Assembly: GCA_003584625.1 (NCBI GenBank) | Contig: AP017647.1 | Span: forward strand, 1,040,603-1,104,602 | Origin: Methanothermobacter sp. MT-2 | GTDB lineage: Archaea > Methanobacteriota > Methanobacteria > Methanobacteriales > DSM-23052 | Direction of reading: 5' to 3' | Length of the DNA stretch: 64,000 nt | Shown: one piece after another, positions 1,541-30,959 of the stretch | Numbering within the stretch: position 1 is the first letter of the stretch | Layout: each line of letters opens with the position of its first letter | Notes under the pieces: generated by a model | What the model saw: the letters and a program-made list of their open reading frames with translations, nothing else | The model's database searches: none | What the model was told of the DNA's origin: nothing | Made by a program: the position numbers and the translations under genes

Positions 1541-2638
1541 ATCCACTGCAAAATTTGTGACAGGACCGCCACTAGCATCCTAGACAACATTTGCGGAAAT
1601 TGCCTGAAAAAGGCGCCTGAAAAGATTGTCAAAAACCTGATAAAAACCTCACACCAAAAAAGCCGCATCATCCCACCATTTTCACCCCCAAGTGATCCCC
1701 AAGGCATCACCTGTAACGATTGCGGGAACCTTTGCAAAATAAAAGAAGGAGAATACGGTTTCTGCCGCTTGCGCAAAACAGAAAAGGCTAAGATACATTC
1801 CAAGTTAGATACAAACTATGAAGCAGTGGGCATTTTCTATTTCGACCCATTACCCACCAATTGCGTGGCAGACTGGGTATGCCCCGCTAGTACAGGGGCT
1901 GGTTACCCAAAATACGCCTATTCACCAAAAACAGAATACGGATACAGAAACCTCGCCGTATTCTTCGGAACCTGCTCATTCGATTGCCTATACTGTCAAA
2001 ACAGCTCATACAGGGAAATGGCCCTTACAGGGAAACCCTTGTTCAATGTTAAGGACATAACCCAAATCCTAGATGATAAAAGTGCCTGTATATGTTTCTT
2101 TGGGGGTGATCCATCACCACAGATGTCATTTGCCCTATCAGCAGCCCGGAGCGCAATCAAAGAAAAAAAGAATAGGATCCTGAGGATCTGTTGGGAGACC
2201 AATGGTAACATTCACCCCCGATACATAAATGAAATGGCTAAGATAAGCTTATCCTCTGGGGGCATAATAAAATTCGACCTAAAAGCATGGGACGAAAAAC
2301 TCCACAGGATATTAACCAGTGTAAGTAACCGGCAAACCCTCAAAAATTTCAAATACATCTATGAACATTACTTTGATAAGAGGAGTGAACCACCCTTACT
2401 TGTTGCAAGCACACTCATGGTACCAGGGTACGTGGAAAAAGACGAAGTGGAAAAGATAGCCAACTTCCTATCGAAACTCAGCCCAGACATACCCTATGTT
2501 TTACTCGCCTTTTCACCACAACACATGATGACAGATCTTCCATTATTAACATGGGAAGAAGCAGAAAAATGTTTGAAGGCGGCTGAAGGGGCAGGATTAA
2601 AAAAAGTGTACTTAGGGAACCCCCACCTATTAAGATGA
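1541..2638 (+). CDS. Radical SAM protein with N-terminal Cys-rich domain (AUC start or start-codon mutation)
   Basis: A radical SAM enzyme of the pyruvate-formate-lyase-activase-like/AmmeMemoRadiSam group; its substrate is unknown. The [4Fe-4S]-SAM motif CSFDCLYC lies about 70 residues after the TTG at 1769, followed by GGDPSP and WETNG. A frame starting at that TTG is open and would give 289 residues. Upstream in the same frame there is a clearly coding Cys-rich segment: HCKICDR, NICGNC, CNDCGNLC and EYGFCRLR, so the full protein is about 365 residues. The only place the N-terminus can begin is codon ATC at 1541, immediately after an in-frame TGA (1538-1540) and 6 nt after a good GGTGG site. 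No ATG or GTG is available in frame. The gene therefore either uses AUC or carries an ATG-to-ATC change. Confidence 0.8.
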   Translation: MHCKICDRTATSILDNICGNCLKKAPEKIVKNLIKTSHQKSRIIPPFSPPSDPQGITCNDCGNLCKIKEGEYGFCRLRKTEKAKIHSKLDTNYEAVGIFYFDPLPTNCVADWVCPASTGAGYPKYAYSPKTEYGYRNLAVFFGTCSFDCLYCQNSSYREMALTGKPLFNVKDITQILDDKSACICFFGGDPSPQMSFALSAARSAIKEKKNRILRICWETNGNIHPRYINEMAKISLSSGGIIKFDLKAWDEKLHRILTSVSNRQTLKNFKYIYEHYFDKRSEPPLLVASTLMVPGYVEKDEVEKIANFLSKLSPDIPYVLLAFSPQHMMTDLPLLTWEEAEKCLKAAEGAGLKKVYLGNPHLLR

Positions 2639-2867
2639 ACCATACCCCCCTGCTATCCCAGGAGGCTCCCCAGCATTTAATTGATGTTTCACGTCACTGG
2701 CTCATTTGCCAGTCCACAGTTCCACCAGCCCACAGAATCCATTACCCTTGCCATATATTTTTCTACAATTCGAATTTAAACCCTCCTCTATATGGGAACA
2801 TCCTCACAAAAAGAGTATTTAAAAGCTGGAAATACTAAATTTTTGGCTCTTATTCTCCTTCGGAAAG
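2639..2867. other. Spacer between radical SAM gene and CRISPR locus
   Basis: 229 bp with no convincing gene. An open frame starting within the preceding stop (ATG 2635) encodes 67 residues of low-complexity, Pro/His-rich sequence without family features and is probably chance. A small hairpin, ACTGGC-tcattt-GCCAGT, is at about 2695-2712 and could be part of a transcript end. Confidence 0.4.
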
Positions 2868-2897
2868 ATTTCAATCCCATTTTGGTCTGATTTTAAC
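2868..2897 (-). repeat. Solitary CRISPR repeat of a different family
   Basis: A single 30-bp sequence, in the same orientation as the adjacent array, which on the minus strand reads GTTAAAATCAG...GGGATTGAAAT. It is not a variant of the array repeat. From memory it matches the repeat of the Methanothermobacter thermautotrophicus CRISPR loci, including the ATTGAAAT 5' handle. A 33-bp spacer-sized segment (2898-2930) separates it from the first decayed repeat of the main array. Confidence 0.85.
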
Positions 2898-2930
2898 AAT
2901 CTGTCGAGATGAATGTACCTTGTTTCTGTA

Positions 2931-5900
2931 ATTTCCATATTATTTAGTTTATTTTAAAGCACGGATCTGGAACGGACGTTTCCCATTTTTATTTGTTTCC
3001 ATACTATTTAGTCTATTTCAAAGCAATCACTTTATAAATCAGATTCTCCTTTTCTGAAACAGATTTCCATACTATTTAGTCTATTTCAAAGCTCAAACCA
3101 TAGAGGGGGGTTTTATTTTGGAAGAGAATTTCCATACTATTTAGTCTATTTCAAAGCTCGTCAATGGTGGTGTAATACTTTTGGGGTGGGTTGGATTTCC
3201 ATACTATTTAGTCTATTTCAAAGCTTGGATTGTGACAGTATCCCCATCCGCGGGGACGCCGCTATTTCCATACTATTTAGTCTATTTCAAAGCGAGAGGG
3301 GATGCAAAAAAAGAAAAGGATTTGGGTGTATTTCCATACTATTTAGTCTATTTCAAAGCTATTTTTCGTTTTTTTGATGATTCTCAGGGAGGGGATATTT
3401 CCATACTATTTAGTCTATTTCAAAGCATAGTATAGAAAAAAAATTCAGCGAATACAGCGACTTATTTCCATACTATTTAGTCTATTTCAAAGCTTTGAGT
3501 TCATCTCATTCAAGTATGCTTTTAATTCCTATTTCCATACTATTTAGTCTATTTCAAAGCCTAGGCCCCAAAAAAAAACACCCCCCAAAAAAAACATATT
3601 TCCATACTATTTAGTCTATTTCAAAGCGAGAGAGGCCTGGCCCCAAAAAAACACCCATGAAAAAATTTCCATACTATTTAGTCTATTTCAAAGCTCAGTC
3701 TTGAGACTGAGGTCGAGTTCAGAGTAGACGAAATTTCCATACTATTTAGTCTATTTCAAAGCCCCTTCCCTTCTCTCCTGAATGATGATTTCGAGAAAAC
3801 ATTTCCATACTATTTAGTCTATTTCAAAGCCCACAAAACCCCCCAACAACACCACCAAAAAAACCCACATTTCCATACTATTTAGTCTATTTCAAAGCAG
3901 AAGAAATATCAGAACTCGAAAAAACAATCGGAAAAACATTTCCATACTATTTAGTCTATTTCAAAGCCCTGAATCATCCAAAAAACGAAAAATATATATA
4001 TGATATTTCCATACTATTTAGTCTATTTCAAAGCAGTCCTCGGAAACTACGAGAGCGAGGATGATGAGCTATTTCCATACTATTTAGTCTATTTCAAAGC
4101 TTTCGTTCATGTTCTTTTTTGACTTTTTGCCTATATAATTTCCATACTATTTAGTCTATTTCAAAGCTAGCAAAATATAAAAGAAAACCAAAAATAGTAG
4201 CCAATTTCCATACTATTTAGTCTATTTCAAAGCTCTTTACATACTCTATTTTTAGTTCAGTTTTTTCTTTTATTTCCATACTATTTAGTCTATTTCAAAG
4301 CCTCTCTTTGTCGCATATGTGAATGAATCGGTTGAGGAATATTTCCATACTATTTAGTCTATTTCAAAGCAGTATTTTTCGGCCTGTTTAATCCTCTCAC
4401 TAAGACATTTCCATACTATTTAGTCTATTTCAAAGCCATATTGCTCAGCTGTCATTTCCCCAGCATAAATACAAATTTCCATACTATTTAGTCTATTTCA
4501 AAGCAACTTAAAGTCTATTGTAAGGCAATGGAGGGGTCTTATTTCCATACTATTTAGTCTATTTCAAAGCGCAGCTATGGCGAATATAAGCCAGCCAAGC
4601 ATATTATATTTCCATACTATTTAGTCTATTTCAAAGCTCATCATCGAATCGCAAACTATATATATTCGGAGTACATTTCCATACTATTTAGTCTATTTCA
4701 AAGCCAGCTGAGGCCAGACAATATCTGAAGGGTTATTTCAACTATTTCCATACTATTTAGTCTATTTCAAAGCTTAAAAATGTTGCAAGGGAAATAAAAG
4801 AGAAAGATATATTTCCATACTATTTAGTCTATTTCAAAGCCTTCACGGTCTTGTTCAACCTTAATCTCTTGGAATAGGCATTTCCATACTATTTAGTCTA
4901 TTTCAAAGCGCGGATATGTCCCACAAACCCCTGGAAACTTCTATAATTTCCATACTATTTAGTCTATTTCAAAGCAGTGCACAGGATTGTTCTATTGTGA
5001 AACCTTGTTCTAATTTCCATACTATTTAGTCTATTTCAAAGCAGAGACCTTCGAATTGGAAACGGATGAAGAATTAGAATTTCCATACTATTTAGTCTAT
5101 TTCAAAGCAGTGCACAGGATTGTTCTATTGTGAAACCTTGTTCTAATTTCCATACTATTTAGTCTATTTCAAAGCGCCCATACTTGAATAACATGATACA
5201 AATGCAGCCAAATTTCCATACTATTTAGTCTATTTCAAAGCGTGCTTTGATCCGCTCTTCAACTGTAGCCTGATTTTATTTCCATACTATTTAGTCTATT
5301 TCAAAGCCTTATATGTGCAGGCTAATCTGAAAGGCCTCCAAAATTTCCATACTATTTAGTCTATTTCAAAGCTCTTTGACCGCTCTGTCTACGATTTCAG
5401 GAGTTATCAATTTCCATACTATTTAGTCTATTTCAAAGCAAGGAGAATGTGTACTTTGAGAGTGTCACAAAATAATTTCCATACTATTTAGTCTATTTCA
5501 AAGCCAGTTGAAGAGACCCGTGAGATTGGGAAACCAAGGCAGATTTCCATACTATTTAGTCTATTTCAAAGCACAATCTTATCAATCCACTGCGACAAGC
5601 CCTCAAAAATTTCCATACTATTTAGTCTATTTCAAAGCACAAGATGATCGATGCTGTTCCTGAGGAGTACTTCATATTTCCATACTATTTAGTCTATTTC
5701 AAAGCTATACCGCTTATTTCCCTCACAGTCTCAAATATTTCATATTTCCATACTATTTAGTCTATTTCAAAGCGTTAGGCCAACGCACCGTAGAAATCAC
5801 CTGCAGATCAATTTCCATACTATTTAGTCTATTTCAAAGCTATCGTTCTTCACGGCTTATAGCATCCCCAATAACCTTATTTCCATACTATTTAGTCTAT

Positions 5901-8900
5901 TTCAAAGCTTGAATTGGCGTGTGGCCTCGCCTTCAAATGTTAATAATTTCCATACTATTTAGTCTATTTCAAAGCACGCCATCTCTTTTTATCCCCATGC
6001 TTTTTATCGATATTTCCATACTATTTAGTCTATTTCAAAGCGTGAGGCCTTCCCCTCCATTCTCGATAGATTCAATGATTTCCATACTATTTAGTCTATT
6101 TCAAAGCCGGAATATTAATATGTATTCGTGTTCATGGGTTACAATTTCCATACTATTTAGTCTATTTCAAAGCAGTAACCCCATCCACCATATTTCGAAA
6201 CCACCACCATCATTTCCATACTATTTAGTCTATTTCAAAGCATACCCAGTATTTTTGTTCAATTTTCCGGTTGTTTACATTTCCATACTATTTAGTCTAT
6301 TTCAAAGCTGTGATGGTCTTGGAGATCGCTATGATCTCATCATTATTTCCATACTATTTAGTCTATTTCAAAGCGGTTTCAGTGGTTTGATAGTAACAAG
6401 ACCCTTATCCTCATTTCCATACTATTTAGTCTATTTCAAAGCCAATACTCTGCTTAGAGCAAAGTAGAGCGGATACCGGATTTCCATACTATTTAGTCTA
6501 TTTCAAAGCCGCGGGGATTTCGCAAATACACTTGTTGACTTACTTGTGATTTCCATACTATTTAGTCTATTTCAAAGCTTCATTATATAATTTCTTCTTC
6601 CCATTCCTATAGAGTATTTCCATACTATTTAGTCTATTTCAAAGCTGCCGATATTCGCCGCTAAAGCAGCAACACCAATATAAATTTCCATACTATTTAG
6701 TCTATTTCAAAGCATTCATCCCCTCAACATGGAGGGAAAACCCTTATCTATTTCCATACTATTTAGTCTATTTCAAAGCCAACACCTAGAATCATGGAAG
6801 CATGTGAAAAAGGGAGATTTCCATACTATTTAGTCTATTTCAAAGCGACTTTATGTATATCAACGTACACTCCTCTTTTTTTATTTCCATACTATTTAGT
6901 CTATTTCAAAGCAGCCCGTGAAGGCACATTCTTGAGCGTTGTTTTCAAATTTCCATACTATTTAGTCTATTTCAAAGCAATTGAATCCCTTCATCATACC
7001 CAGGGATCCTTAGAAATTTCCATACTATTTAGTCTATTTCAAAGCCATCTGAAAGAGTTGTATGGGTATGGTGTGATCTATATTTCCATACTATTTAGTC
7101 TATTTCAAAGCACAATCGACGCTTACAGGGTTAGCATAGTCCCCGGACATTTCCATACTATTTAGTCTATTTCAAAGCTGTGCCGATGATAATGTCATGG
7201 CCACCTAGATTCACAATTTCCATACTATTTAGTCTATTTCAAAGCACGGATGTTATTGACTTGAAATTCAAGATGACAGGCCTTATTTCCATACTATTTA
7301 GTCTATTTCAAAGCAAGCAAAAAATGCAAAAAGAACATACAAGCACAGTTATTTCCATACTATTTAGTCTATTTCAAAGCTAGACCCGGACAAACCGCGC
7401 ATATTTTGAATTCGTAGATTTCCATACTATTTAGTCTATTTCAAAGCACAGTCATTGTACCAGCATCTCCAGCATCGAAGGTTGATTTCCATACTATTTA
7501 GTCTATTTCAAAGCACTCCCTAATTATGTGAACATAGCAACCACAACCCTATTTCCATACTATTTAGTCTATTTCAAAGCGCTACTGGGAAGATCGCAGA
7601 ACTTGTTAAAGAGTTATATTTCCATACTATTTAGTCTATTTCAAAGCAATAACGTGTCAGCACCGAGCATTTTAATGTTAAACGTATTTCCATACTATTT
7701 AGTCTATTTCAAAGCTAGATGTATCCTTCATTTTCACCGGTTGGCATTGAATATTTCCATACTATTTAGTCTATTTCAAAGCCGTTCTAAAAATGCTTTT
7801 TTGTACCTATAACCTTCACCATTTCCATACTATTTAGTCTATTTCAAAGCGTAGGCCCTCCAATGGCATTAGTTTCATGTAACAGTATTTCCATACTATT
7901 TAGTCTATTTCAAAGCTGTGACTTGCTCGAAGATTCCCCGTTACTATGGGTGCAATTTCCATACTATTTAGTCTATTTCAAAGCCATCCACCAGTTTTCT
8001 GGTCCAACCAATTGAATTTATATTTCCATACTATTTAGTCTATTTCAAAGCACAACAAACAGAAGAAGTAAAATGGCTAATACAAAGAAATTTCCATACT
8101 ATTTAGTCTATTTCAAAGCAGTGAAAAGGGACTTAGAAGAACTCCCATCACCTGATATATTTCCATACTATTTAGTCTATTTCAAAGCCTGGATATCCAC
8201 CCCAGTACTTCATAAAATGGCCTGATTTCCATACTATTTAGTCTATTTCAAAGCGGGGGATGGTTGGGATTATAAAGCTGTTAGGTTTGGATTTCCATAC
8301 TATTTAGTCTATTTCAAAGCGTTGAGAAGAAGAAAAAGAATATGGGTGGGGATCCCTATTTCCATACTATTTAGTCTATTTCAAAGCCCGTGTGAATGCC
8401 GTGGTTGAGGAGTTGACACAACTTAATTTCCATACTATTTAGTCTATTTCAAAGCATTGCAGCGCATTCCCTGAGGATTGGCTGGATTTTGTATTTCCAT
8501 ACTATTTAGTCTATTTCAAAGCGGTGCTGCCCTGTCACCGGGGAATTTCTGCCCGTTTCATTTCCATACTATTTAGTCTATTTCAAAGCGTAGTCAATTG
8601 CAGGGTCTTTCATATATTCTTTCCATTATTTCCATACTATTTAGTCTATTTCAAAGCAAGCCAGTTATACCATCACCAGAGATTATCAAACCATATTTCC
8701 ATACTATTTAGTCTATTTCAAAGCTCTTGGATTAGCTGCTACTGCATTACAACCATTTTTATTTCCATACTATTTAGTCTATTTCAAAGCTTTAGATCTG
8801 CTATTTTTTCTTGTATGTCCTCTATCGATTTCCATACTATTTAGTCTATTTCAAAGCCCTTCGCAACGAGTGATGCTCCTTCCATTGGGTTTTATTTCCA

Positions 8901-10458
8901 TACTATTTAGTCTATTTCAAAGCTCGCAGGATACGATCATGAAATGGAATTACTATGGGATTTCCATACTATTTAGTCTATTTCAAAGCACCCGCACTTC
9001 TTTCAGTTTTTCCCTAATAATCATCTGATTTCCATACTATTTAGTCTATTTCAAAGCAGATTGACCACAATACGTACCATTAGCCATCATCCTCAATTTC
9101 CATACTATTTAGTCTATTTCAAAGCACGCCAAGTAGAGGAAATAAAACGCTTATCCCCAATTTCCATACTATTTAGTCTATTTCAAAGCCATAAAAATAC
9201 ACCATTCAACCTACCCTAAACACAAATTTCCATACTATTTAGTCTATTTCAAAGCAAGCTTCTAACGCTGCACAAAGCAAAGGATTGCTCTATTTCCATA
9301 CTATTTAGTCTATTTCAAAGCACGCCCCAGGAAGGCCCCACATTCGAAATAGAGACCAGATTTCCATACTATTTAGTCTATTTCAAAGCTCTTGTGAAAG
9401 CCGTGACAGACCTTGAAACTCAGGATGATTTCCATACTATTTAGTCTATTTCAAAGCAATATCTTGACAAAGGGACAGGAATTCACGGACCTAAATTTCC
9501 ATACTATTTAGTCTATTTCAAAGCTTTGAACCCTATTTCCACACAACCAACGAGAACATAATTTCCATACTATTTAGTCTATTTCAAAGCGGTATTTGTC
9601 CAGCCATCGGCAGCTTCTCATACCTTTATTTCCATACTATTTAGTCTATTTCAAAGCAGAACATGCAACAATACAAAACATAAAAAGATCCAAATTTCCA
9701 TACTATTTAGTCTATTTCAAAGCAAATTCATCCTTTTGATGCTCTACGCTACCTTAGATCGATTTCCATACTATTTAGTCTATTTCAAAGCTATCAGCTT
9801 AACAAACAGGCCATGCGTCTATGATGCATTTCCATACTATTTAGTCTATTTCAAAGCTTTCATTGCTTTCAGATACACTTGATGATACCTATTAATTTCC
9901 ATACTATTTAGTCTATTTCAAAGCACCCGTTCTTGGTTTTGTACTTCACAATTTCGTCTTATTTCCATACTATTTAGTCTATTTCAAAGCCATACAAAGG
10001 CAACTACCATGCGAATAGCACATGGATATTTCCATACTATTTAGTCTATTTCAAAGCTCTTTCTTGGCTTTCTCACATTCCTTGATAAATGCTTTATTTC
10101 CATACTATTTAGTCTATTTCAAAGCCATAGATCTATCAGAGGATCTTAAAGAAATCGATGAATTTCCATACTATTTAGTCTATTTCAAAGCTGGAAGTGT
10201 TACGGTTGTGGGGCCCATGGTAGTACGCATTTCCATACTATTTAGTCTATTTCAAAGCAGCGTGTGGGCTGGGATTATAGCAAGTGGAAGGATGTATTTC
10301 CATACTATTTAGTCTATTTCAAAGCTAAACCGGTTTATTTCATCCATTTCATCTACCATCCCATTTCCATACTATTTAGTCTATTTCAAAGCCCACGTCT
10401 ACGCAGGCCATATGGATGCTATTCACCTATTTCCATACTATTTAGTCTATTTCAAAGC
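2931..10458 (-). CRISPR. CRISPR array, 113 repeats of 30 bp and 112 spacers
   Basis: Direct 30-bp repeats occur with a period of about 66-68 bp; I counted 113 starts from 2931 to 10429, with spacers of about 35-38 bp. On the transcribed (minus) strand the repeat reads GCTTTGAAATAG...AGTATGGAAAT, giving an ATGGAAAT 5' handle. Orientation is inferred from three facts: the decayed repeats are at the left end (2931 has three C-to-T changes, 2995 has a changed first base), the A/T-rich leader and cas2 lie at the right end, and the 3' end of the repeat resembles the usual ATTGAAA(C/T) handle. All other repeats look identical by eye. Open frames inside the array translate the repeat over and over and are not genes. 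Confidence 0.98.
4976..5145. repeat. Duplicated spacer within the array
   Basis: The 37-bp spacer at 4976-5012 (beginning agtgcacagg, ending accttgttcta) is repeated exactly at 5109-5145. One different spacer (5043-5078) lies between them, giving an A-B-A order. Confidence 0.95.
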
Positions 10459-10624
10459 CGAGGTGTTTTTTCGGTTATATTAATTCTATTTGTTTTAGAA
10501 CGCTTCTTTTTTAATTTTGTATAAGTCAAGATATAATAACGTTTTTATTTTATAAATGTTGACTAGGTGAGATTTGAATTTTGTTTGAATTATGTATAAG
10601 ATAGTGTAGTATTACTTTTTGTAT
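10459..10624 (-). promoter_or_regulatory. CRISPR leader
   Basis: A 166-bp, highly A/T-rich segment lies between the last intact repeat and the cas2 stop codon. Read on the minus strand it contains a TATA-like element AACATTTATAAAA (about 10547-10559) about 90 nt before the first repeat, and it joins the array through accgaaaaaacacctcg. Its position at the intact-repeat end next to cas2 fits a leader that directs transcription leftward and receives new spacers. Confidence 0.8.
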
Positions 10625-10888
10625 TTATAATATTAAATCTATTGGGTTTTTATCTTGTCCAATTACATGAAGAGTAATATATTTTTTGTTTGGAAATTTG
10701 TAAATTAGTACGGAGTCTGTTTTTTCATTTATTAACTTTTTTAATTCATTTTTTATATTAGTAAATTGTGATCTGCTTACTTCCCCTTCAAAAACAGAGT
10801 TTTGTCTCCAATGTAGGAACATTTTAAGAAATTTATTGACTTTATTAACTTTACGCGCATCAACATCATATACAATTAAGAGATACAT
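10625..10888 (-). CDS. cas2: CRISPR-associated endonuclease Cas2
   Basis: 87 residues with the Cas2 ferredoxin-like fold signature: N-terminal MYLLIVYDVDARKVNKV with the conserved Asp at the end of strand 1, followed by LHWRQNSVFEGEVS. Start ATG 10888 is chosen over an upstream ATG at 10951 because AGGTGT lies just before it and it gives the standard Cas2 N-terminus. Cas2 dimers bridge Cas1 dimers to form the spacer integrase. Unusually, it does not follow cas1 directly: 390 bp lie between them, and a TATA-like aaatatatag at about 10950 suggests its own promoter. Confidence 0.95.
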   Translation of the reverse strand: MYLLIVYDVDARKVNKVNKFLKMFLHWRQNSVFEGEVSRSQFTNIKNELKKLINEKTDSVLIYKFPNKKYITLHVIGQDKNPIDLIL

Positions 10889-11278
10889 ATTATACACCTT
10901 TTCATGTAAAATTAGTGATTGTGATCTCACAATGTATTTTTTGTTATGCAACTATATATTTTTGATTGTTTTATATGGAAAATATCAAAATTGTATCTAC
11001 ATCATTCAAAGAGATTTAAAAAATAGGCTTCATAGAAAGCATATAGATCTGTGCACTGGTGGAGGGGGAGGATATGGAGGGGTCTCATAGAGTAAAAGGG
11101 TACCTCTTGAAGATAACTGTATTCAAGGTGCTGAAACATCTATAAGCACATATTCAGAATTAGTCTGTTTTATCACTACTCGATGATTTTTACAAATCCA
11201 AAAAATAATTTTAGAATATCTTGAAATTCTGACAGAGTTATTAATATTAAGTTTAATCATGAATGTTTTAATCTATTT
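10889..11278 (-). other. 390-bp gap between cas1 and cas2; possible 45-residue ORF
   Basis: These genes normally abut or overlap, but here there is mostly A/T-rich sequence with a purine-rich patch (ggtggagggggaggatatgg, about 11056-11075). A short minus-strand frame (ATG 11260 to stop 11123-11125, 45 residues, Lys/Ile-rich, ending YVLIDVSAP) has no good ribosome binding site and no family I recognise. The segment could be a promoter/5' leader for cas2, a decayed gene, or an insertion scar. Confidence 0.45.
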
Positions 11279-12253
11279 CTACCACCATGATTTGAAGCTT
11301 TCATATTTTTTGTCTCCTAGTAGATGTTTTATCAATTTGTAACATTCTAAGCGCAATAAATACTTATAGGAAACTCTTCTATTAAGTTTTGGGTGTTTAA
11401 TAGTGGTTTCCATTCTATTTTGGTATTCTTTTAATAAAATCTGTTTACCTCGAGCATTTAAGAATACGCCAATATCATAATTAAAGTCTTTTTGTGTGAT
11501 TGCTCTTGTGTTAACTAATTTGAAAATTATTCTCCCTGTGATTATTGGTTTATAAATGTCGGCGATGTCGAGTGCAAGTGAAAATCTTCTTTCATGGGGT
11601 TCATGTAAAAAGCTTATTGATGGGTGTAAATATGTGTGGTAAATTTCTGAGAGGGTACTTACATATAATAAGGAATTTCCAAATGATATTAATGCGTTTA
11701 ATTCAGTTGTGGGTGGTCTGATTTCTCTTTTTTCCATTTTGAAGTTTTTGAGGATTTTATTGAAGCTTTGGTAATATAAATTCCACATGTGTCCTTCACT
11801 ACTTCTCAATTGTGGAACATCTTTATTTTTGAGTGTTTCGTTTTCAATGCCTTCAATATATTTTCCGACTTTCTTTCCCCTGCCCTTATAATATTTTAGT
11901 GACTTTAGGATGTTGTATTTTATGCCTTTAACTATTTCTTTTGCTATATATGTTCTTTTTTCTTCATTGAGGTAATGTTCTGCTTGTTTTACAACTACTA
12001 ACCCCGAATTAAGTTGGATACGTGGATACAACGAACCTTCGTAATACCCATATTTGTTGAAAAAATTTACTGGAATCCCTTCTTTCATTAAAAGAGAAGA
12101 AGCCCCTGATTTAAGAGTAACTTTACCATAACAATTTATTTCATTTATGCGATTTATGGGTATGGCTTTTTTTATATCCTTATTTATATAATATAAGGTG
12201 TTGCCTTTTCTTGATAATATCCCATTGGATGTTATATAAATGGGATCCCTCAT
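11279..12253 (-). CDS. cas1: CRISPR-associated endonuclease Cas1 (type I-B)
   Basis: 324 residues, the metal-dependent integrase for new spacers. Visible active-site regions are SSEGHMWNLYY (catalytic Glu), HEPHERRFSLALDIAD (catalytic His and Asp), and the N-terminal strand repeat ending SGILSRKGNTLYYI-like. Start ATG 12253 lies 5 nt after the cas4 stop and behind GGTGT; an upstream in-frame ATG at 12277 would overlap cas4 more. It belongs to the leftward cas operon. The following gene cas2 is separated by an atypically long gap. Confidence 0.96.
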   Translation of the reverse strand: MRDPIYITSNGILSRKGNTLYYINKDIKKAIPINRINEINCYGKVTLKSGASSLLMKEGIPVNFFNKYGYYEGSLYPRIQLNSGLVVVKQAEHYLNEEKRTYIAKEIVKGIKYNILKSLKYYKGRGKKVGKYIEGIENETLKNKDVPQLRSSEGHMWNLYYQSFNKILKNFKMEKREIRPPTTELNALISFGNSLLYVSTLSEIYHTYLHPSISFLHEPHERRFSLALDIADIYKPIITGRIIFKLVNTRAITQKDFNYDIGVFLNARGKQILLKEYQNRMETTIKHPKLNRRVSYKYLLRLECYKLIKHLLGDKKYESFKSWW

Positions 12254-12257
12254 TTTC

Positions 12258-12749
12258 CTACACCATACAAAATTCATGATAACTACAGCGCTTACAGTAA
12301 GGTTTCACTTTTATAGATGGTGGAGTTTCCATCTTAATTATTTTTTTAATCTTTACGAGTATTTTCTCGATTTCATCTTCAATTTTGGGTGTTAATTTTA
12401 TTCTTTCACGTTTTTTCTCTTTGGGGTAGACTATGACCCCATTAAGTTTTTTTCCTGTGAATTTTTTTATATACCAAAGATAATAATATAACTGATATTT
12501 TACCGGCTCTGTGAGTTTACTTGATTTTTTTATTTCAAAAACGGTCAAATTTTTATCTTTTATAAAATCAAAGGAAACATCTCCAAATTTCACATTTTTC
12601 CTTTCTCTTGAATAACTCTTTTCGTGGATTATACGTCCAATTAATATATCCTCATTGTCATAATTCATGTTTATTTGATTTGCGAAAAACCAGAGTTCTC
12701 TCTCGCAAGAAATATAATATTGAACCATCACTCCAGTTATTCGTTCCAT
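12258..12749 (-). CDS. cas4: CRISPR-associated exonuclease Cas4
   Basis: About 163 residues. Cas4 is a RecB-like nuclease with a [4Fe-4S] cluster that trims prespacers and checks the PAM during adaptation. One cluster Cys is in YYISCERELWFF near the N-terminus and three are in the C-terminal CKRCSYHEFC. The nuclease core shows the F-E-I-K-K motif (FEIKKSSK) and the QLYYYLWY helix. The start at ATG 12749 gives the standard N-terminus and overlaps the end of cas3 slightly; an ATG at 12776 in the same frame is a less likely alternative. Confidence 0.93.
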   Translation of the reverse strand: MERITGVMVQYYISCERELWFFANQINMNYDNEDILIGRIIHEKSYSRERKNVKFGDVSFDFIKDKNLTVFEIKKSSKLTEPVKYQLYYYLWYIKKFTGKKLNGVIVYPKEKKRERIKLTPKIEDEIEKILVKIKKIIKMETPPSIKVKPYCKRCSYHEFCMV

Positions 12750-12756
12750 AATACCA

Positions 12757-15159
12757 CTAAAGGAATTGCCAGTCATCCTTTTTAAGAGCTTTTAATCCAA
12801 TTTCATAATTATAATCAAACCCATCTAAAATGTAAAAATTGTTTTTATGTATTTCACCCTCCTTTAACAATTTGAAAAACAACCATTTGTATATACCAAC
12901 TGTATTCTCAAATCTTTCTGGGCTATCTTCCTCCTCAATGAACTTTTTCGGGATAACATCTATTGTTTCGAAACTTTCGTCCGTGTCACGTAATTGCAAA
13001 AGTTTTGAAATCTCTTCAAGGTTTTCTGTCTTGAATCTTATAGTGTAAGGTCCTCTCTCAATTATCTTATCATATTTTTTGAAACCATCTTCAAATTTAT
13101 TTTGGAATTCAAATAATATTTGATCTGTATTTAACAGACTTTTATATAACCTGTTCACATAAGCAGATAACTCACCAAGTGATGGACTTCCAGGTTCTAG
13201 AATTTTTTCGGAAAACTCAATTATTTCCATTCTATATGGATACGACCATCTACCACTATCTGAGACAGCTTCTATATCTGTAGATATGAATACATTCCCT
13301 TGTATTTCGTCCTTTCTTCTGTTAATTCTCCCTATTCTTTGTACTAGTGCATCAATAGGTGCCAATTCTGTAAACATCACATCAAAGTTTATGTCAAGTG
13401 ATATTTCCACGACTTGCGTCGCAACTAATACCAGACCTCTGTCTTTCCATCCATCTTTTTCTTCTATTTCGCTTTCTTTCAACTTCCTGTCCTTTTTAAC
13501 GAATTGTGAATGATATAATATCAAATTTGAATGTTTATCTGGATGATTATTAGTTTTAAACTCGTTTGTTTTCTTGAGGTTATTGTAGATTTCTTTTGAC
13601 TTTTCAATAGTATTCGTTACAACAAGTACTTTTTTTCTTTTCTGATAAAAATCGATAATTTGATTTATTTTATCTGAAATACCATCTGCTCCTATTTCTA
13701 ATTTAACGGGTGCTGGTTCAAATAGATCCTTTTGCGTGATCTTTGAATAATTTATACCTTTCAGGAGGTGTTTTTCCAATAATTCGGGGAATGTGGCGCT
13801 CATCAAAGCAAAATTACAGCCCTTTGTGTTTAATTCTAACAATATCCTCCTAAGAACCCCTATCATTTTAAAATCATAAGAATGTATTTCATCGACTATG
13901 AGTAAGGAATTTTCTAAATTTAATTGCGCCAAGGGCCATTTATTTATGTTGAAAAAACTTAATATAAATGAATCCAAAGTTGAAACAGTTATGGGTTTTG
14001 AAAATGTTTTATTTAAAATTTTTTCTCTCCACAACTTTTCTTCATCATCACCATATTCCTCCGCTAGGATTATTGAAGAAGCACCATGGAGTATACCAAC
14101 ATAATCATTACCAAAATAGTCCTTAAAGCGTTTGTACATGGAATTACTTGTAACTTGCGTTGGCATGGTATATATTACCTTTGTATGCTTGTTTTTAATA
14201 TTATTTAACGCCCATAAAAGTGCTGCTTCAGTTTTGCCTTCTCCTGTAGGTATCTTAATAATAACATTTCCTTGTTTTTTAGATGCTACTTTTTGAAATT
14301 TTTTCAAACCTTGGAAAGAAATGCCTTTTTTTCTCGCTCTCCATTTAAGTTTCTTTAATAAATCCCCCTTTGTCATCTTCGGAAAGTTTGGATTATTTAG
14401 TCCGCTGGAGAGCCAGTCACCCCGTATAAGGTTACCTGTTACAAACCCATAGATTTCCTTGATTTTCTTTTTGGAAGATTTATCGCTTCTACTGAGAATA
14501 GCATTAAGGGCGTCAATTATTCCCTTACCAGAAAATCCCCATGAAAAATCCTCTCTCAGAATATTATATGGATTTTTAGAGGGTAATTCAAATTTGAGTT
14601 TATATGGAAATTCAAATCCAAAAAAGTCCCTATAGTATTCGTCATATTTTTCTGCAAATTTGAATGTTTCTTTGAAAAAATTTGGAGCTCTTATCTGTTG
14701 GAATTTTTCTGTTCCATATATATCTTTATGGAGTAGGGTGTGATGAGTTAAAACTGAAAGTGTTACATAATCAACATCATCGATCCTTGGAATTGATAAT
14801 CCTTGTGTAAAATAAATGGAATATAAAGGATGATATGATTTCCTCTTCCTAAGTAGCTTATCTTCATAAAATTCAAGAGTACCTTTACCTATATCATGAA
14901 AGAAAACAGAAAAAAACAATATATCATAGAGTGTTTGCTCTTTGACATCATGTTTTGTTGAGAACATTTTAAAAATTTCATTGTTCTCTGTTATAAATTT
15001 TTTAAGTTCCTTTAAAGCATTTTTTGTATGTGCTTCTAAACTGTAATCAGCCGTATCTGTTTTCGCTATTAAATTAGATTCAAAGAATTTGGGATCTCTT
15101 TTGTAAATTTCTTTAAATTTGTCTTTGTAATCTTTAACAAAATCTTTTAGTGAGAGCAT
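12757..15159 (-). CDS. cas3: CRISPR-associated helicase-nuclease Cas3 (HD-helicase fusion)
   Basis: 800 residues; degrades target DNA after Cascade recognition. The HD nuclease domain is N-terminal (H44, FHDIGKG with H88-D89, HH at 139-140). The superfamily 2 helicase follows with Walker A PTGEGKT (304-310), a DEIH box (423-426), SAT (454-456) and QRIGRINRR motif VI. HD and helicase are in one chain and in the usual order. Start ATG 15159 has GGAGATG just upstream. It lies 8 nt after the cas5 stop in the operon. All catalytic motifs look intact. Confidence 0.96.
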   Translation of the reverse strand: MLSLKDFVKDYKDKFKEIYKRDPKFFESNLIAKTDTADYSLEAHTKNALKELKKFITENNEIFKMFSTKHDVKEQTLYDILFFSVFFHDIGKGTLEFYEDKLLRKRKSYHPLYSIYFTQGLSIPRIDDVDYVTLSVLTHHTLLHKDIYGTEKFQQIRAPNFFKETFKFAEKYDEYYRDFFGFEFPYKLKFELPSKNPYNILREDFSWGFSGKGIIDALNAILSRSDKSSKKKIKEIYGFVTGNLIRGDWLSSGLNNPNFPKMTKGDLLKKLKWRARKKGISFQGLKKFQKVASKKQGNVIIKIPTGEGKTEAALLWALNNIKNKHTKVIYTMPTQVTSNSMYKRFKDYFGNDYVGILHGASSIILAEEYGDDEEKLWREKILNKTFSKPITVSTLDSFILSFFNINKWPLAQLNLENSLLIVDEIHSYDFKMIGVLRRILLELNTKGCNFALMSATFPELLEKHLLKGINYSKITQKDLFEPAPVKLEIGADGISDKINQIIDFYQKRKKVLVVTNTIEKSKEIYNNLKKTNEFKTNNHPDKHSNLILYHSQFVKKDRKLKESEIEEKDGWKDRGLVLVATQVVEISLDINFDVMFTELAPIDALVQRIGRINRRKDEIQGNVFISTDIEAVSDSGRWSYPYRMEIIEFSEKILEPGSPSLGELSAYVNRLYKSLLNTDQILFEFQNKFEDGFKKYDKIIERGPYTIRFKTENLEEISKLLQLRDTDESFETIDVIPKKFIEEEDSPERFENTVGIYKWLFFKLLKEGEIHKNNFYILDGFDYNYEIGLKALKKDDWQFL

Positions 15160-15167: not shown

Positions 15168-15863
15168 CTATATGAATTCTATGTTGAACCCATTTTCATT
15201 GTCATGATAAATTTTCTTCGTGACATTGGTTTCAAAATATAATCCTAAGAATTCTACAATCTGAATGAAATCTGTTGGTTTTCTTGGTAAACTACTTTTG
15301 AAATCTCTGTTAATTGTAACGATACGTGGAGGGAATATCTGGATATTCTTCTCAAGTTTGAGTACTTTGGAATTAAATTCCATGCCTTCATCGAATCTGA
15401 AAACACTGTGTACAATGTTACTATTATCTGCCTCTAGAACAGTTCTCTTTACGTTTTTGAGAATCACGAGTTCATCATCCATTCCTAAACTGGGTATTCT
15501 ACAAGGTTTTTTTAGAGAATTAAAAATTTCTTCAAGGAGGGACTTTTTTGCGGTTAAGTAGATGAGATATTTGCCATGATAAATTTTTTCTCTTTGTAGT
15601 ATGTCTCTTCCAAAACCCGCACTCTTCCATTTTTTAAAAGTCCATGCATCATTAAAAATTGAATTGATGTAAAGTGGGATTATTCCCACTTTCACTTTTT
15701 TGAGTAGTTCATAGTATTCCTGCTCATTTTTGCCCATTATATTGGTAATCATTCCTATGATTTGTGTCCTAGTAGGTGATAAGTAAGTTAGCTGGTATAT
15801 TGATGTCTGAGGCATCCTGAATGAATTTATTAGGCCTTCTACTGTGAATTTCACAGCTTCCAT
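15168..15863 (-). CDS. cas5: Cascade subunit Cas5 (type I-B)
   Basis: 231 residues, a RAMP-fold protein that caps the 5' handle of crRNA in Cascade. The N-terminus AVKFTVEGLINSFRMPQ is the usual Cas5 start (beta strand plus SFR), followed by LSPTRTQIIGMI, which matches the Cas5 motif for the first helix. Start ATG 15863 has AGGTGT upstream. It sits between cas7 and cas3 with spacings of 9 and 8 nt, indicating co-transcription and likely translational coupling. Confidence 0.92.
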   Translation of the reverse strand: MEAVKFTVEGLINSFRMPQTSIYQLTYLSPTRTQIIGMITNIMGKNEQEYYELLKKVKVGIIPLYINSIFNDAWTFKKWKSAGFGRDILQREKIYHGKYLIYLTAKKSLLEEIFNSLKKPCRIPSLGMDDELVILKNVKRTVLEADNSNIVHSVFRFDEGMEFNSKVLKLEKNIQIFPPRIVTINRDFKSSLPRKPTDFIQIVEFLGLYFETNVTKKIYHDNENGFNIEFI

Positions 15864-15872: not shown

Positions 15873-16787
15873 CTAGCATAGCCATTCTTTGACATTATCT
15901 AAGGCTTTGTTAATACTTGTTACTTTGTCACTGAATGTGTCTTTTATTTCTTCTTCATTTGCAAATATTCCGGATCTTATACCCACACAGTAATCTTCGA
16001 TGATATCGTTGAATTCTGTAAGGACTTCGTTTAAAAGATCTATTTTTATGTTATTTTCGAAATCCATGTCGAGTGCATTTAAGAATATGGGGGTTCCCGC
16101 CTTTTGCTTTGTGACTATTACAAATTTGGGGGTTAGATCATCTAACAATCTTGCCCTTTTTGAGCCTCCATCGATACTTTTGAGAGAATCTAAAAAATAG
16201 CTTATTCTCATTGCTTTTTCTTCATTATCAATAACTGGTTCCATGTTATAATTTAGCTCATCTACTATGGAGCCAATTGAACTGGCGTCGATAACTATGG
16301 TTCCTCTCATGAAATTAAACGTGTTAACTTCTACTTTAACGAGATCACCGCCTTCTTGCCCCTCTTTTTTCCTTGTTAACATGTCACTATTGCCATTCCA
16401 TGGGAAAATACTTATAAGTGGCGAAACTTTAACTGGAGACCATCTTCTAAGAGCCATTTTTCCTTTACCTTTCTCTGCTTCCATGAATCCGAAAATATCG
16501 AGGTCTGGATGTCTTTTAATAATTTCTCGGTATCTTTCTTGGGGATCCTTGGAATCAGTTTCTATTATATATTCACCATTTTTATCAAGTTTTGTTAGGT
16601 CCATCCCCAGTTGGTTCATGGTCTCTTTGAGATAATATCGTAAAGCTTGTCCAGATACATAAGGGTAATAATTTCCTTGGTAATCCTGCACTTTCTTTAA
16701 GACTATTAAATTTCCAGGGTTTTCACTACTATTCAAATTGTCTATGTTTACTTTTGTGATGTATCCTATATTTGCAAATTTTCTCAT
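15873..16787 (-). CDS. cas7: Cascade backbone subunit Cas7 (Cst2/DevR family)
   Basis: 304 residues. Cas7 polymerises along the crRNA spacer. The N-terminus ANIGYITKVNIDNLNSSENPGN and YYPYVSGQALRYYLKETM match the Cst2/DevR Cas7 group used by TNEAP-type I-B systems. ATG 16787 is preceded by a near-perfect GGAGGTG site; an upstream ATG at 16844 would overlap cas8 needlessly. The start is 2 nt from the cas8 stop. Confidence 0.93.
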   Translation of the reverse strand: MRKFANIGYITKVNIDNLNSSENPGNLIVLKKVQDYQGNYYPYVSGQALRYYLKETMNQLGMDLTKLDKNGEYIIETDSKDPQERYREIIKRHPDLDIFGFMEAEKGKGKMALRRWSPVKVSPLISIFPWNGNSDMLTRKKEGQEGGDLVKVEVNTFNFMRGTIVIDASSIGSIVDELNYNMEPVIDNEEKAMRISYFLDSLKSIDGGSKRARLLDDLTPKFVIVTKQKAGTPIFLNALDMDFENNIKIDLLNEVLTEFNDIIEDYCVGIRSGIFANEEEIKDTFSDKVTSINKALDNVKEWLC

Positions 16788-16788
16788 T

Positions 16789-18468
16789 TTAAGCACCTCC
16801 TTTAGTTTTGGCGTATTTTGTTGACAGGTACTTTTGTATTGCATATATTGCCAAATAATTGCGTATCAGAGTTATATTCTTTTTGTCTTGCGACTTTTGG
16901 AGAATTCTTTTTATCAAGGAAAAATATGTTTCATCTTTCCCTTTAGGTTTCGAACTCCAAATTGCGCCTGCTTTTTCTTTTACTATCTCATATTCTAAAT
17001 CCTTGAAAAATTCTGTTAGACCTTCCATGTTTCCTATTTCCCTTATAGAATATAGTATGGATTTATTGTCTGTTTCTCCTGCGAAATATCCTATTCGGTC
17101 CCCTACTAACATGCATATTTCATGGATTTCTTTTAATTCATTCATTCCAGTTACCTCCAAATATTTTTCAAAAAATTCGAAAAGAAGTTGTGAATTGAGA
17201 GTTGAAGGATTGTTGATAGAAAGATTATTATAAGAAAGATCCATTAAAACAGGGTCAATAGGCAAACTATATAATATATTTTTGGATAGTTCCTCACGTG
17301 GTAAATTTTTGGTCTTAGAATCTTTCATGCCTTTATATGATGCATAATTAATGAGAGAATATAAAAAAGGACGTCCATTGTTTGTAATCAAGTCTTTGAG
17401 TTCATCAAAAAACTTGATTATATATGACATTCTGTTATAATTTTTCAAATCATCAACGCCCCTTGAATTTACAGTAAAATAGAATATGTTCAAGAGTTTA
17501 AGTTCGTCTCTTTCTAAAATTTCTGATTTAATTTTATAAAGAAGTAAAAGTAAAGTTGAATAAATATCAGTTGTGAAAAAGTCCTTATCCTCTATGAAAT
17601 TAGTTTTGATATTCCTTTTAATGTTCTCTTTATACTCCGAATCTATTAGGAGAACATTTTTTATTTTATATAAAAGTGGAAGTGAAGGGGCTGAAATTAT
17701 AAAGAGGTTATTGTTGAGGAAATAATTGTCCATCATTCCATATCTATATATAAGATCGCACATGAAACATATTGGCATATCCTTTTTGTTTCTATGGTCC
17801 CTGAATGATGGGAGGGTATCCCCAGTTCCAAAATCAAAGATTAGGTTTGTGGATAATATTGAAAAAGTTTTTTCCTTATTGGAATCATCAATGTATCTTG
17901 AATAGTCGAATCCACAAAGAATACACCTTTCCCCCTTGAGAAGTTTTTTTATTCTTCCAGAGATATTTTCCCCAAGCCTTTGAGGTTTTAGATAAACATT
18001 AACTTTTGACTGCTTTCCATATTGCAATTTACCGCTTACATTTTTGTCAGATTGCAATTTTAGGATCTCTTCTTCTTTTTTAAGTTCCTCCAACTTACTT
18101 TTTGGAACATCAACTCTTGGGAGTAGATCTTTTGTTCTTTCTGATCGTTGAAGAAATGGTTTAACATTTAATTTAGGTCCTATAATCACCTTATCCTTTT
18201 CAGGATCATAATATGGTTTATAATTTTTCGTTTCTTCAAATACTCTTGCATAATAGAAACTTCTCAAAATGAAATATATTTCCTCTAAATCCTTTCTATA
18301 ACCTGTAAAATTCAAATTTAAACTATTTAAACTTATTTCGGAATCTTTATACTTCAAATTGTTATCTTCTAATTTTTTAAACTCTTTGTGTCTTTCCATT
18401 TCTGAAAAAATATTAACAAGACCATTATCATATAAAAAGTCTCTTTTTTCAAAATTTAAACTTAGCAT
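16789..18468 (-). CDS. cas8: Cascade large subunit Cas8 (Cst1/CXXC-CXXC type, I-B)
   Basis: 559 residues. The large Cascade subunit recognises the PAM and recruits Cas3. It carries two paired cysteines, CILC (182-185) and CFMC (234-237), the feature that names the Cst1 (CXXC-CXXC) family and marks the TNEAP branch of type I-B. Start ATG 18468 overlaps the cas6 stop and follows GGAAGTGATG; an upstream ATG at 18531 lies inside cas6. Beyond the zinc-binding-like region the sequence is poorly conserved, as usual for Cas8. Confidence 0.92.
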   Translation of the reverse strand: MLSLNFEKRDFLYDNGLVNIFSEMERHKEFKKLEDNNLKYKDSEISLNSLNLNFTGYRKDLEEIYFILRSFYYARVFEETKNYKPYYDPEKDKVIIGPKLNVKPFLQRSERTKDLLPRVDVPKSKLEELKKEEEILKLQSDKNVSGKLQYGKQSKVNVYLKPQRLGENISGRIKKLLKGERCILCGFDYSRYIDDSNKEKTFSILSTNLIFDFGTGDTLPSFRDHRNKKDMPICFMCDLIYRYGMMDNYFLNNNLFIISAPSLPLLYKIKNVLLIDSEYKENIKRNIKTNFIEDKDFFTTDIYSTLLLLLYKIKSEILERDELKLLNIFYFTVNSRGVDDLKNYNRMSYIIKFFDELKDLITNNGRPFLYSLINYASYKGMKDSKTKNLPREELSKNILYSLPIDPVLMDLSYNNLSINNPSTLNSQLLFEFFEKYLEVTGMNELKEIHEICMLVGDRIGYFAGETDNKSILYSIREIGNMEGLTEFFKDLEYEIVKEKAGAIWSSKPKGKDETYFSLIKRILQKSQDKKNITLIRNYLAIYAIQKYLSTKYAKTKGGA

Positions 18469-19175
18469 TTCATCACTTCCCTTGTATTTAACATTCCAAA
18501 GCCTAGTGAGTTTTTTTCTCCGAGTCCACAATCTAAAATGAATCGGTAGAACTTTTTATTTTCCATGTTAAATTTCTCGAGATTCTTCCAGAGCGTGCCT
18601 ATAATTATAAACATTTTTCCTCCTTTTTTTATTCTTACAGCCACTTCACGGTTAAATTCAAATTTATCGAAAATGTTCCCATCAAAATAATAGTTTTCAT
18701 CATAGAAGGCGTTGTATTTTTTAAGAGCGTTTTCTTTTAGCCTGTCTAAAAAAAATTGAAAATCATGTGCCTTTTTGATTGAATAATAAATATTTTTTCT
18801 ATTATTTTTGTACAAGACAATGGGAGTGGTTGTTATAAAACTCCTTTTTAATCTTGGCTTAAACACTTTTACTGAGTCTATTTCTATGGGGTATTTGCCA
18901 ATGTAATATTTTTTTGGTTTTTTTAACTGTTTTTCAATTTCTCTTATGATTCTAGGATTTGGTGATGAAATTATCAAATTTTTTATTTCATCTGTTATAA
19001 AATCTGAAACAGGAAAAATATTGGAGAAGCAGAAATATTTAAACCCCCATGTATTGTGATAATGGCTATAATTGCTATTTTTCAGCAATGAATAAACGAA
19101 GCCTTGAAGTGTGTAATTGTTTATCTCATAATATTCAAAATCTTCCATGGGTTTGAACTTAAGCAATAATCGCAT
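18462..19175 (-). CDS. cas6: crRNA-processing endoribonuclease Cas6
   Basis: 237 residues, first gene of the cas operon. Cas6 cuts the pre-crRNA at the base of each repeat and leaves the 8-nt handle. The Cas6 signature is the C-terminal Gly-rich loop CGLGEKNSLGFGMLN; NYTLQGFVYSLL near the N-terminus fits the first RAMP domain. Start ATG 19175 has GAGGTAATAAA upstream. It overlaps the cas8 start by 7 bp. Confidence 0.94.
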   Translation of the reverse strand: MRLLLKFKPMEDFEYYEINNYTLQGFVYSLLKNSNYSHYHNTWGFKYFCFSNIFPVSDFITDEIKNLIISSPNPRIIREIEKQLKKPKKYYIGKYPIEIDSVKVFKPRLKRSFITTTPIVLYKNNRKNIYYSIKKAHDFQFFLDRLKENALKKYNAFYDENYYFDGNIFDKFEFNREVAVRIKKGGKMFIIIGTLWKNLEKFNMENKKFYRFILDCGLGEKNSLGFGMLNTREVMKC

Positions 19176-19518
19176 TTTATTACCTCTTCTCGATCTAAAT
19201 CCTATTTTACCTTATAACACCACCATTTGATACCTTTTTTACAGTTCAACTTCCCTTCTAATTTAGAAATCACTCCCCATTATTGATTAGTATTTCTTGT
19301 TCTAATGTAAACATTTATTATATATAAATTTTACTCTGCGGTTTACATGATGCATTTATAAGTATTGGAATAGAAAATCAATCCTTATATAAAATTATTG
19401 GGCCATTCCAAAAAATAAGAGCATAGTTCTAAAAAATGCCCTTTTAAACTCCGTCCAATTTCAATGATGTGAAAACTCCTAACGATAAACTCAAAATAAT
19501 CCAAATTAAAATCAGTAT
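19176..19518 (-). promoter_or_regulatory. cas operon promoter region with inverted repeat around the TATA box
   Basis: On the minus strand a TATA-like aaatttatatata (19319-19331) lies about 145 nt before cas6. Perfect 8-bp inverted repeats, ATGTAAAC (19305-19312) and GTTTACAT (19341-19348), flank it on both sides, the layout expected of an archaeal operator. The leftmost third (about 19380-19518) holds no gene and also contains the 3' end region of the ABC permease transcript. Confidence 0.5.
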
Positions 19519-20283
19519 CTACATTAGATTTTGTTCCTTTGTGTTGAATAAGAATGCGGCTGCAAAGACTGTGATTATTGCAAATACCGTGATCACAACC
19601 AAGTTCACTTCAAGAGGGAGCACAGATCTTCTAAGTATGGTGAATCTTAAAGCGTCAACTGCATATGTAAGTGGATTAATATATACTGCGCCTTGAAGCC
19701 AGCTTGGAAGTCCTGTAATTGGGAATAAGGCTCCGCTAAGGAGGAATATAGGCAGCACTATGAAGCTCATTATGAGGTTAAACCCTTCCATGCTATCTGT
19801 GAATGCTGCTATTACAAGTCCAAGACCTCCAAGGCCCATGGATACTATTAGGGCTATTATCATGCTAACAATGAAACATAAAGGTGACATGGTGACTCCT
19901 ACTATGAATGATAGCACTAGTAGGATGGCTGCTTGTATCATTGAGGCCGTGCTTATACCCAAAGCTTTTCCAAAGACTATTGATGGTCTTGATATCGGCG
20001 CTACCAGTATCTCTTTGAGGAAACCATACTGTCTGTCTATTATTACTGAAACTCCTGAGAATATGCTTGTAAATAGTATGGTTTGGCCTATTATCCCTGG
20101 GTAGATGAATGCTCTGTAGCCTCCCGGGACTGCTGCGAATCTTATTGAAGCTCCAAGCCCGGTTCCGAATATGATTAGCCAGAGCAGTGGAGTTACGATG
20201 GAAGTGACTATCCTGGATCTGTAGCGTAGGAATCTTTTCATCTCCCTTAACCATATGGTGTATATTCCCTCTATTTCGCCCAT
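19519..20283 (-). CDS. ABC-2 type exporter permease (DrrB-like)
   Basis: 254 residues with about six hydrophobic segments (for example TSIVTPLLWLIIFGTGLGA, MIIALIVSMGLGGLGLVIAA, NLIMSFIVLPIFLLSGALFP, LVVITVFAIITVFAAAFLF). The WLREMKRFLRYRSRIVTSIVTPLLW N-terminus and FSGVSVIIDRQYGFLKEILVAPISR are the standard ABC-2/DrrB signature. It lies 40 nt downstream of its ATPase. The cargo is unknown; daunorubicin-type family names do not imply drug transport here. Confidence 0.92.
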   Translation of the reverse strand: MGEIEGIYTIWLREMKRFLRYRSRIVTSIVTPLLWLIIFGTGLGASIRFAAVPGGYRAFIYPGIIGQTILFTSIFSGVSVIIDRQYGFLKEILVAPISRPSIVFGKALGISTASMIQAAILLVLSFIVGVTMSPLCFIVSMIIALIVSMGLGGLGLVIAAFTDSMEGFNLIMSFIVLPIFLLSGALFPITGLPSWLQGAVYINPLTYAVDALRFTILRRSVLPLEVNLVVITVFAIITVFAAAFLFNTKEQNLM

Positions 20284-20323
20284 ATTCGCTGCCCTCTAGG
20301 TTAAATTTTTCTTATCCCCCATT

Positions 20324-21262: not shown

Positions 21263-21395
21263 GGCCACCCCCCGGAGTGTTAAAACTATCCTCTTTTTTT
21301 TGTTCCCTATGGGGATTATTCTATCAGAAAGATTTATTATGAATTGTTGGTAATAACTTTTTTTAGTTGGTCTTTCACTTTGGGGGTGGATTTTT

Positions 21396-22790: not shown

Positions 22791-22793
22791 GTT

Positions 22794-23057
22794 TTGGATG
22801 AGGTAATCCTAAGATTATATGTGACTCGAAAAAATCCTTATGCAAAGGCAGCTATCCAAACCCTCAATCAACTCCAGGATAGGGTGAATATTAAACTTGA
22901 GATTGTGGATGTTAGTGAAAATCCGGATTTGGCCCGTGAGAATCATCTTATCGCCATACCCACCCTTGAAAGGATAAAACCCGAGCCTAGAAGGAGGCCT
23001 ATAGGTGATCTTTCCGATACTAAGGCGCTCTTAAAATTTATAGGGTGTCAACTTTGA
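22794..23057 (+). CDS. KaiB-like protein
   Basis: 87 residues, full length for KaiB. Signature features are the thioredoxin-like strand LRLYVTRKNPYAKAAIQTLNQL, IVDVSENPDLARENHLIAIPTL, and the terminal RRPIGDLSDTKALLKFI, which resembles the RRIIGDLS motif of KaiB. In cyanobacteria KaiB switches fold and binds KaiC CI; here the partner is presumably the adjacent KaiC. TTG start at 22794 follows the kaiC GGGGAGAG segment, and its stop overlaps the start of the histidine kinase, so translation is probably coupled. Confidence 0.88.
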   Translation: MDEVILRLYVTRKNPYAKAAIQTLNQLQDRVNIKLEIVDVSENPDLARENHLIAIPTLERIKPEPRRRPIGDLSDTKALLKFIGCQL

Positions 23058-24997: not shown

Positions 24998-25010
24998 GGG
25001 GCTGAAAATA

Positions 25011-26357: not shown

Positions 26358-26376
26358 AAAAAAGGAGGTTTAGGTT

Positions 26377-26853: not shown

Positions 26854-26862
26854 TTGTGGGGG

Positions 26863-26915
26863 TTTAAGGAGTATAAAAATAAGGATTTTAGAGGGGGTGA
26901 AATAGACTCCTTAAA
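26863..26915. terminator. Inverted repeat between convergent genes
   Basis: TTTAAGGAGT (26863-26872) and ACTCCTTAAA (26906-26915) are perfect 10-bp inverted repeats separated by 33 nt. They sit between two convergent genes and could form a stem serving transcript ends in either direction. Confidence 0.45.
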
Positions 26916-26964
26916 AACCCTTACTCCATCTACTATTTTCACATATATTAATCTTTTTCCGTGG

Positions 26965-27810: not shown

Positions 27811-27864
27811 TATCCTCCACCATACCAAAAGTCAAATATACTCTAATAAGCTTCACACTTAATT

Positions 27865-29854: not shown

Positions 29855-29882
29855 TAAGAATAAAAAACAGAAAAACTATCCT

Positions 29883-30928: not shown

Positions 30929-30959
30929 CAGAGGCCCACATTATTTAAGCGAAAGATTT

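Follow-up and report, generated by a model that had tools for sequence, protein, structure and literature searches.

The 113-repeat CRISPR array near the start of the window (the whole 64,000-nucleotide stretch of DNA analysed here) is followed at its leader-distal end by a repeat that does not belong to it, which raises the question of how a single unit of another family came to stand there. A preliminary description proposed, from the sequence alone, that an older array of another family had been replaced at this place or that two loci had recombined. The most probable answer, to which a probability of roughly 0.88 is assigned, is that the repeat is a remnant of an older type I-B cassette of its own family (R2) at this site, displaced by a cassette of the resident family (R1).

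The distal end of the array

2868–2897, minus strand (crRNA sense): solitary intact R2-family repeat, probable scar of a displaced cassette; exact R2, with an R2 array at the same site in the congener G001
2898–2930, no strand: junction segment of 33 nt between repeats of two families, with the left breakpoint placed inside it
2931–10458, minus strand: R1-family CRISPR array of 113 repeats and 112 internal spacers, leader at the high-coordinate end
2931–2960, minus strand: most distal R1 repeat, with three C-to-T differences, of which the one at position 25 is shared with related R1 repeats

The foreign unit is an exact copy of the 30-bp R2 repeat (ATTTCAATCCCATTTTGGTCTGATTTTAAC), and it lies beside R1 repeats that are themselves decayed: with R1 copies counted at 0 to 3 mismatches, the most distal carries three and the second most distal (2995–3024) one. 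An intact repeat of another family at a decayed array end, set off by a spacer-like stretch of 33 bp, had been pointed out in the preliminary description; both features hold at the positions listed, and every detail of that description open to checking proved right. The gap is shorter than every spacer inside the R1 array (34–39 nt). Since decay of distal array repeats does occur, the unit might be thought an ordinary terminal R1 variant that has drifted into the likeness of R2, but 13 of its 30 positions differ from R1-family repeats, so it is not a decayed R1, and its identity to the R2 consensus of two genera already refutes this reading. Shuffles of the 292-bp stretch came no closer to R2 than 11 mismatches, which places the copy beyond chance.

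The repeat is identical over 30 bp to repeats of G002, G004, G014, G016 and G018. The genome G016, which holds 124 and 47 R2 copies, is taken by us to be M. thermautotrophicus deltaH, and R2 accordingly to be the deltaH-type repeat family; on that identification, the affiliation to M. thermautotrophicus given earlier is correct. No further R2 copies within three mismatches are found at spacer distance around the unit, which is thus single, and no similarity to an R2 leader is found near it. The junction segment is common to none of the relatives compared. It has no exact match in IMG/VR and no match in phage records, and it was ruled out as a known spacer on these grounds.

The resident cassette

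10459–10624, minus strand: R1 leader region between the first repeat and cas2, without similarity to R2 leaders
10625–10951, minus strand: cas2 of the R1 cassette (TIGR01573)
11279–12277, minus strand: cas1 (type I-B) of the R1 cassette, the only cas1 of the genome (TIGR03641)
12258–12776, minus strand: cas4 (TIGR00372)
12757–15159, minus strand: cas3 (TIGR01587)
15168–15863, minus strand: cas5b (TIGR02593/TIGR02592)
15873–16844, minus strand: cas7b (TIGR02585)
16789–18531, minus strand: cas8b (PADLOC PDLC01563, E 2e-111)
18462–19175, minus strand: cas6 of R1 type, the only Cas6 of the genome (TIGR01877)

The type I-B gene set of the R1 cassette is complete, comprising cas1, cas2, cas3, cas4, cas5, cas6, cas7b and cas8b. 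One of its spacers, near 6714–6749, matches the terminase gene of phage psiM2, a virus of a related host, at 97.6%, and on this evidence the R1 cassette has the look of a genuine immune system. No spacer of the window array recurs in eight related arrays. Two spacers within the array, at 4975–5011 and 5108–5144, are identical (they begin AGTGCACAGGATTG) and stand one spacer apart.

R2 elsewhere in the genome

The preliminary description had named frequent occurrence of the solitary 30-mer outside CRISPR loci as a finding that would refute it; the repeat is in fact rare. The assembly is a single contig of 1,522,738 bp, and a scan of the whole genome at up to three mismatches returned, besides the copy in the window, one other (C1:1348997, one mismatch). 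A degenerate copy with six mismatches, at C1:715355, has kept its R2-type leader flank, and the similarity of that flank to the leaders of G001 and G002 was equalled by none of 1000 shuffles. This is a second R2 locus, shrunk to one degenerate repeat and a leader; the fossil spans C1:715354–715559 of the window genome (G000; L011:9355–9560). No R2 arrays were found elsewhere in the genome, and its single Cas6 is of R1 type.

The copy at C1:1348997 has no R2 leader in its flank, and about 8.5 kb around it (G000:C1, about 1345126–1353630; L010:6127–14631) match G002 at 97.5% identity. These surroundings may be one recently exchanged stretch, and the copy was rejected as independent proof that R2 is conserved.

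The same site in congeners

1769–2638, plus strand: radical-SAM gene (Radical_SAM, PF04055), left anchor and last colinear gene before the cassette, with an ortholog in G001

Three congeners (G001, G002 and G003) were compared, the contig of G002 starting near the array end and leaving its left flank uncovered. G001 is colinear with the window on the left of the cassette to 2636, at 75–87% identity, and on its right from 19518 to 36880, at 77–86%. Between these flanks it carries 21 R2 repeats, which end in T instead of C, and one degenerate terminal copy, accompanied by a leader and an I-B cas set that are both of R2 type, and its radical-SAM ortholog (88.6% amino-acid identity) directly adjoins the R2 array. 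What the colinear relative shows at exactly this place is therefore an R2 array rather than a simple array end, in support of the suggestion that an older array was replaced or that two loci recombined. G002 likewise has an R2 array and an R2 cas set beside the same ABC transporter and right flank as the window.

R1 was not found within three mismatches in any of the three congeners. The R1 cas proteins are 25–48% identical to the cas proteins of the congeners and 58–77% identical to those of the other genus (g2), which belongs to a second family. At the site in the window genome there is no trace of R2 cas genes, those present being of R1 type. No convincing R1 remnants were found in the gaps of R2 genomes, where only G018 offers a weak R1-like stretch with 10 mismatches. 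When genome contigs were searched with the radical-SAM protein, the matches came mainly from distant bacteria and did not reveal the site in further species.

The approximately 230 bp from the radical-SAM stop codon to R2 (window 2639–2867) are not alignable with G001, and the left breakpoint is therefore placed by repeat identity alone; at the join in the 33-nt segment no homology came to light. Misassembly of CRISPR arrays is possible in principle and might have joined two arrays here, but the assembly is one contig with no other R2 array available to be joined and its flanks follow G001 on both sides, so that an artefact is very improbable.

A mosaic permease at the right-hand border

19519–20283, minus strand: mosaic ABC-transporter permease gene, foreign-like from 19519 to about 19967 and genus-like from about 19968 to 20283, holding the right-hand crossover

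The right-hand border is recorded in a housekeeping gene. Diagnostic sites were defined as those at which G001 and G002 agree and differ from all sampled members of g2. From 19518 to 19967 these sites are g2-like in 19 cases and own-genus-like in four, whereas beyond about 19,968, through 21,290 and including the ATPase gene, 136 are own-genus-like and two g2-like (Fisher 7.6e-19 for the switch). Trees of the two parts of the permease agree with this: in the cassette-proximal half a long branch with full support places the window genome on the g2 side, and in the other half it falls inside its own genus. The right crossover can thus be placed at about window 19,968, within tens of bases.

The foreign DNA that reaches into the permease most likely arrived together with the R1 cassette. 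The mosaic gene therefore argues that the R1 cassette, of about 17 kb, entered by recombination, displaced the R2 cassette and left one R2 repeat. Of the marks of cassette replacement, colinear flanks are present on both sides, and a phylogenetic switch within a flanking gene is present on the right side only, in the permease. The replacement covered the whole array-plus-cas cassette and not the array alone, and the two possibilities raised at the outset, that an array was replaced and that two loci recombined, turn out to be one and the same event.

A further tract right beside the cassette, window 20560–25380, is 94–100% (mostly 97–100%) identical to G002 over about 4.8 kb, with surroundings at about 80%, and appears from this to be a recent exchanged tract.

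Parallel states in a second family

Genomes of g2 show several states of the same arrangement. In G016 and G008 an R2 cassette lies beside the same ABC transporter; G014 carries an R1 cassette at the ABC-transporter site, with R2 absent there; G004 has an R1 cassette and, 55 nt past its array, a solitary exact R2. G010 has a complete R1 cassette and, on its left side, four copies of decayed R2 with a leader of that family and an intact R2-type cas6. In G018 the CRISPR cassette is gone, and a type I restriction system and two decayed R2 copies occupy the site. The left neighbour in G004, G014, G016 and G018 is a methyltransferase-like gene. G004 and G016, which hold different cassettes, are 100% identical over the last ~660 bp of the left flank (about 90% further out) and 99.6% identical over 1.7 kb of the right flank, a pattern that agrees with repeated cassette exchange through flank homology. 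R2 to R1 alternation at the same site thus appears in the second family as well. A palindrome-like element lies between gene and array in G016 and G014, and the R2 of G004 is on its outer side; it is therefore not a simple terminal-repeat leftover, and its history is not quite that of the window copy.

Several details of these loci may be recorded. The cas8b and cas1 matches of G010 (L173:16496–18185 and 10961–11969) each consist of two overlapping pieces, for which frameshifts or sequencing errors are possible. The type I restriction-modification system of G018 comprises HsdR, HsdS and HsdM (L170:9187–16310). In G008, two extra genes lie between the R2 cassette and the ABC transporter (L171:3533–7427), one for a protein of 733 aa that has a region of ATP-binding type, the other for its partner of 495 aa; the pair is McrBC-like by eye, with weak PADLOC matches. 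An R2-family array in G004:C4 (L022:1501–2290) contains several repeat versions, including the rearranged 30-mer TGATTTTAACCATTTTGGTCTGATTTTAAC. The seemingly solitary R2 of G006 was rejected as a parallel case, since it belongs to an array that is truncated where the contig stops.

The probable course of the exchange

On the displacement reading, an R2-family type I-B CRISPR-Cas cassette would first have occupied the site, and the repeat in the window would be its leader-distal remnant. A different I-B cassette, comprising the R1 array, its leader and cas2-1-4-3-5-7-8b-6, would then have taken its place, coming from a donor that does not belong to the genus. On the right side, the incoming DNA would have recombined inside the conserved ABC permease gene and so produced the mosaic gene; on the left side, the join would have fallen barely within the old array, so that one R2 repeat and the 33-nt join remained. 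R2 at the site in a sister genome, the colinear flanks, the mosaic permease and the absence of remaining R2 cas genes are observed. That there was a single event, and not first an insertion next to the old cassette (as G010 shows it) and then a deletion, is what we infer.

The R1 cas proteins are only 58–77% identical to those of g2, which suggests a donor outside the sampled genomes. The divergence of the R1 cas sets between the two families is similar to that of the R2 cas sets, and this too points to an unsampled donor. There is a small likelihood that the two cassettes coexisted long ago and were then differentially lost.

The similar divergence of the two sets would also suit a course in two steps. 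R1 would first have entered at a point flanked by the R2 cas6 and the permease, so that the two cassettes existed together for a time; a deletion reaching from the R2 array to the end of the R1 array would afterwards have left one R2. G010, in which R2 remnants, leader and cas6 adjoin the left side of a full R1 cassette, has much the appearance expected of such a stage, and the 33-nt join could be a deletion join; in the window, however, neither R2 cas genes nor an R2 leader survive beside the array, even as traces, and the permease mosaic indicates that foreign DNA came with the cassette in any case. This course is considered possible, though distinctly the less probable one. The displacement was most likely effected either in one step or by insertion alongside and later deletion, G010 resembling an intermediate of the second route.

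The exact, unmutated state of R2 needs either a recent event or constraint. A rival reading takes the solitary repeat for a functional ectopic repeat under selection, acting as a CreA-like guard RNA or regulator; its exactness over 30 bp despite the absence of an R2 array, as well as the solitary exact R2 beside the R1 array of G004, would accord with such a role. The repeats of CreTA, however, show degeneration and are specific for the Cas set to which they are linked (PMC9458426), whereas the window repeat is exact and of another family; no R2 Cas6 remains in the genome; G014 carries the R1 cassette without R2; and the best seed match of the 33-nt segment nearby is no better than those of shuffles (182 of 200 equal or better). 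A CreA-like guard was rejected, there being no seed match above shuffles in the flanks scanned, and a CreTA-like role is unlikely, as is any selected function of this kind. The solitary R2 of the displacement reading is now probably an inert scar, the sole remaining Cas6 belonging to R1.

A more far-reaching and doubtful proposal is that the ABC-transporter site is a lasting exchange point, at which two I-B cassettes, along with restriction systems, would swap by flank homology across two families, and that the leader-distal R2 would be kept as a short homology anchor for the return of an R2 cassette or would still give a hybrid crRNA.

Relation to known systems and significance

The exchange of CRISPR-Cas modules among archaeal and bacterial genomes is described in a review of the Sulfolobales (PMC4390879, citing Garrett 2011 and Almendros 2014). 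The present case shares with it the movement of complete cassettes or modules from genome to genome, one taking the place of another; it differs in having a single foreign repeat at one end and a mosaic housekeeping gene at the other, and in the alternation of one pair of cassettes at a single site in both families. A CRISPR repeat outside its normal array context is found also in CreTA and among other ectopic repeats (PMC9458426), but the CreTA repeats are degenerate versions of the resident one and neighbour a toxin, whereas the window R2 is exact, belongs to another family and has no matching target close by. The solitary repeat units of viruses and proviruses (reviewed in PMC8616872) are likewise single canonical repeats without an array; they lie, however, in viral genomes and resemble the repeat of the host, while the window R2 lies at the end of a chromosomal array and is unlike the resident repeat.

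A further counterpart is the deltaH-type R2 cassette of G016, which has the identical repeat and the same ABC transporter alongside; the window keeps one repeat of it, with an R1 cassette in its place. The event is of a known kind, with an unusually complete record.

Archaeal immune systems are thought to turn over by horizontal exchange, the steps of which are rarely visible. Here, one site is seen in several states, namely with the old system, with the new system, with both, with a single-repeat scar, and with loss to a restriction system. A solitary foreign repeat at the end of an array could serve as a marker of past swaps in other genomes.
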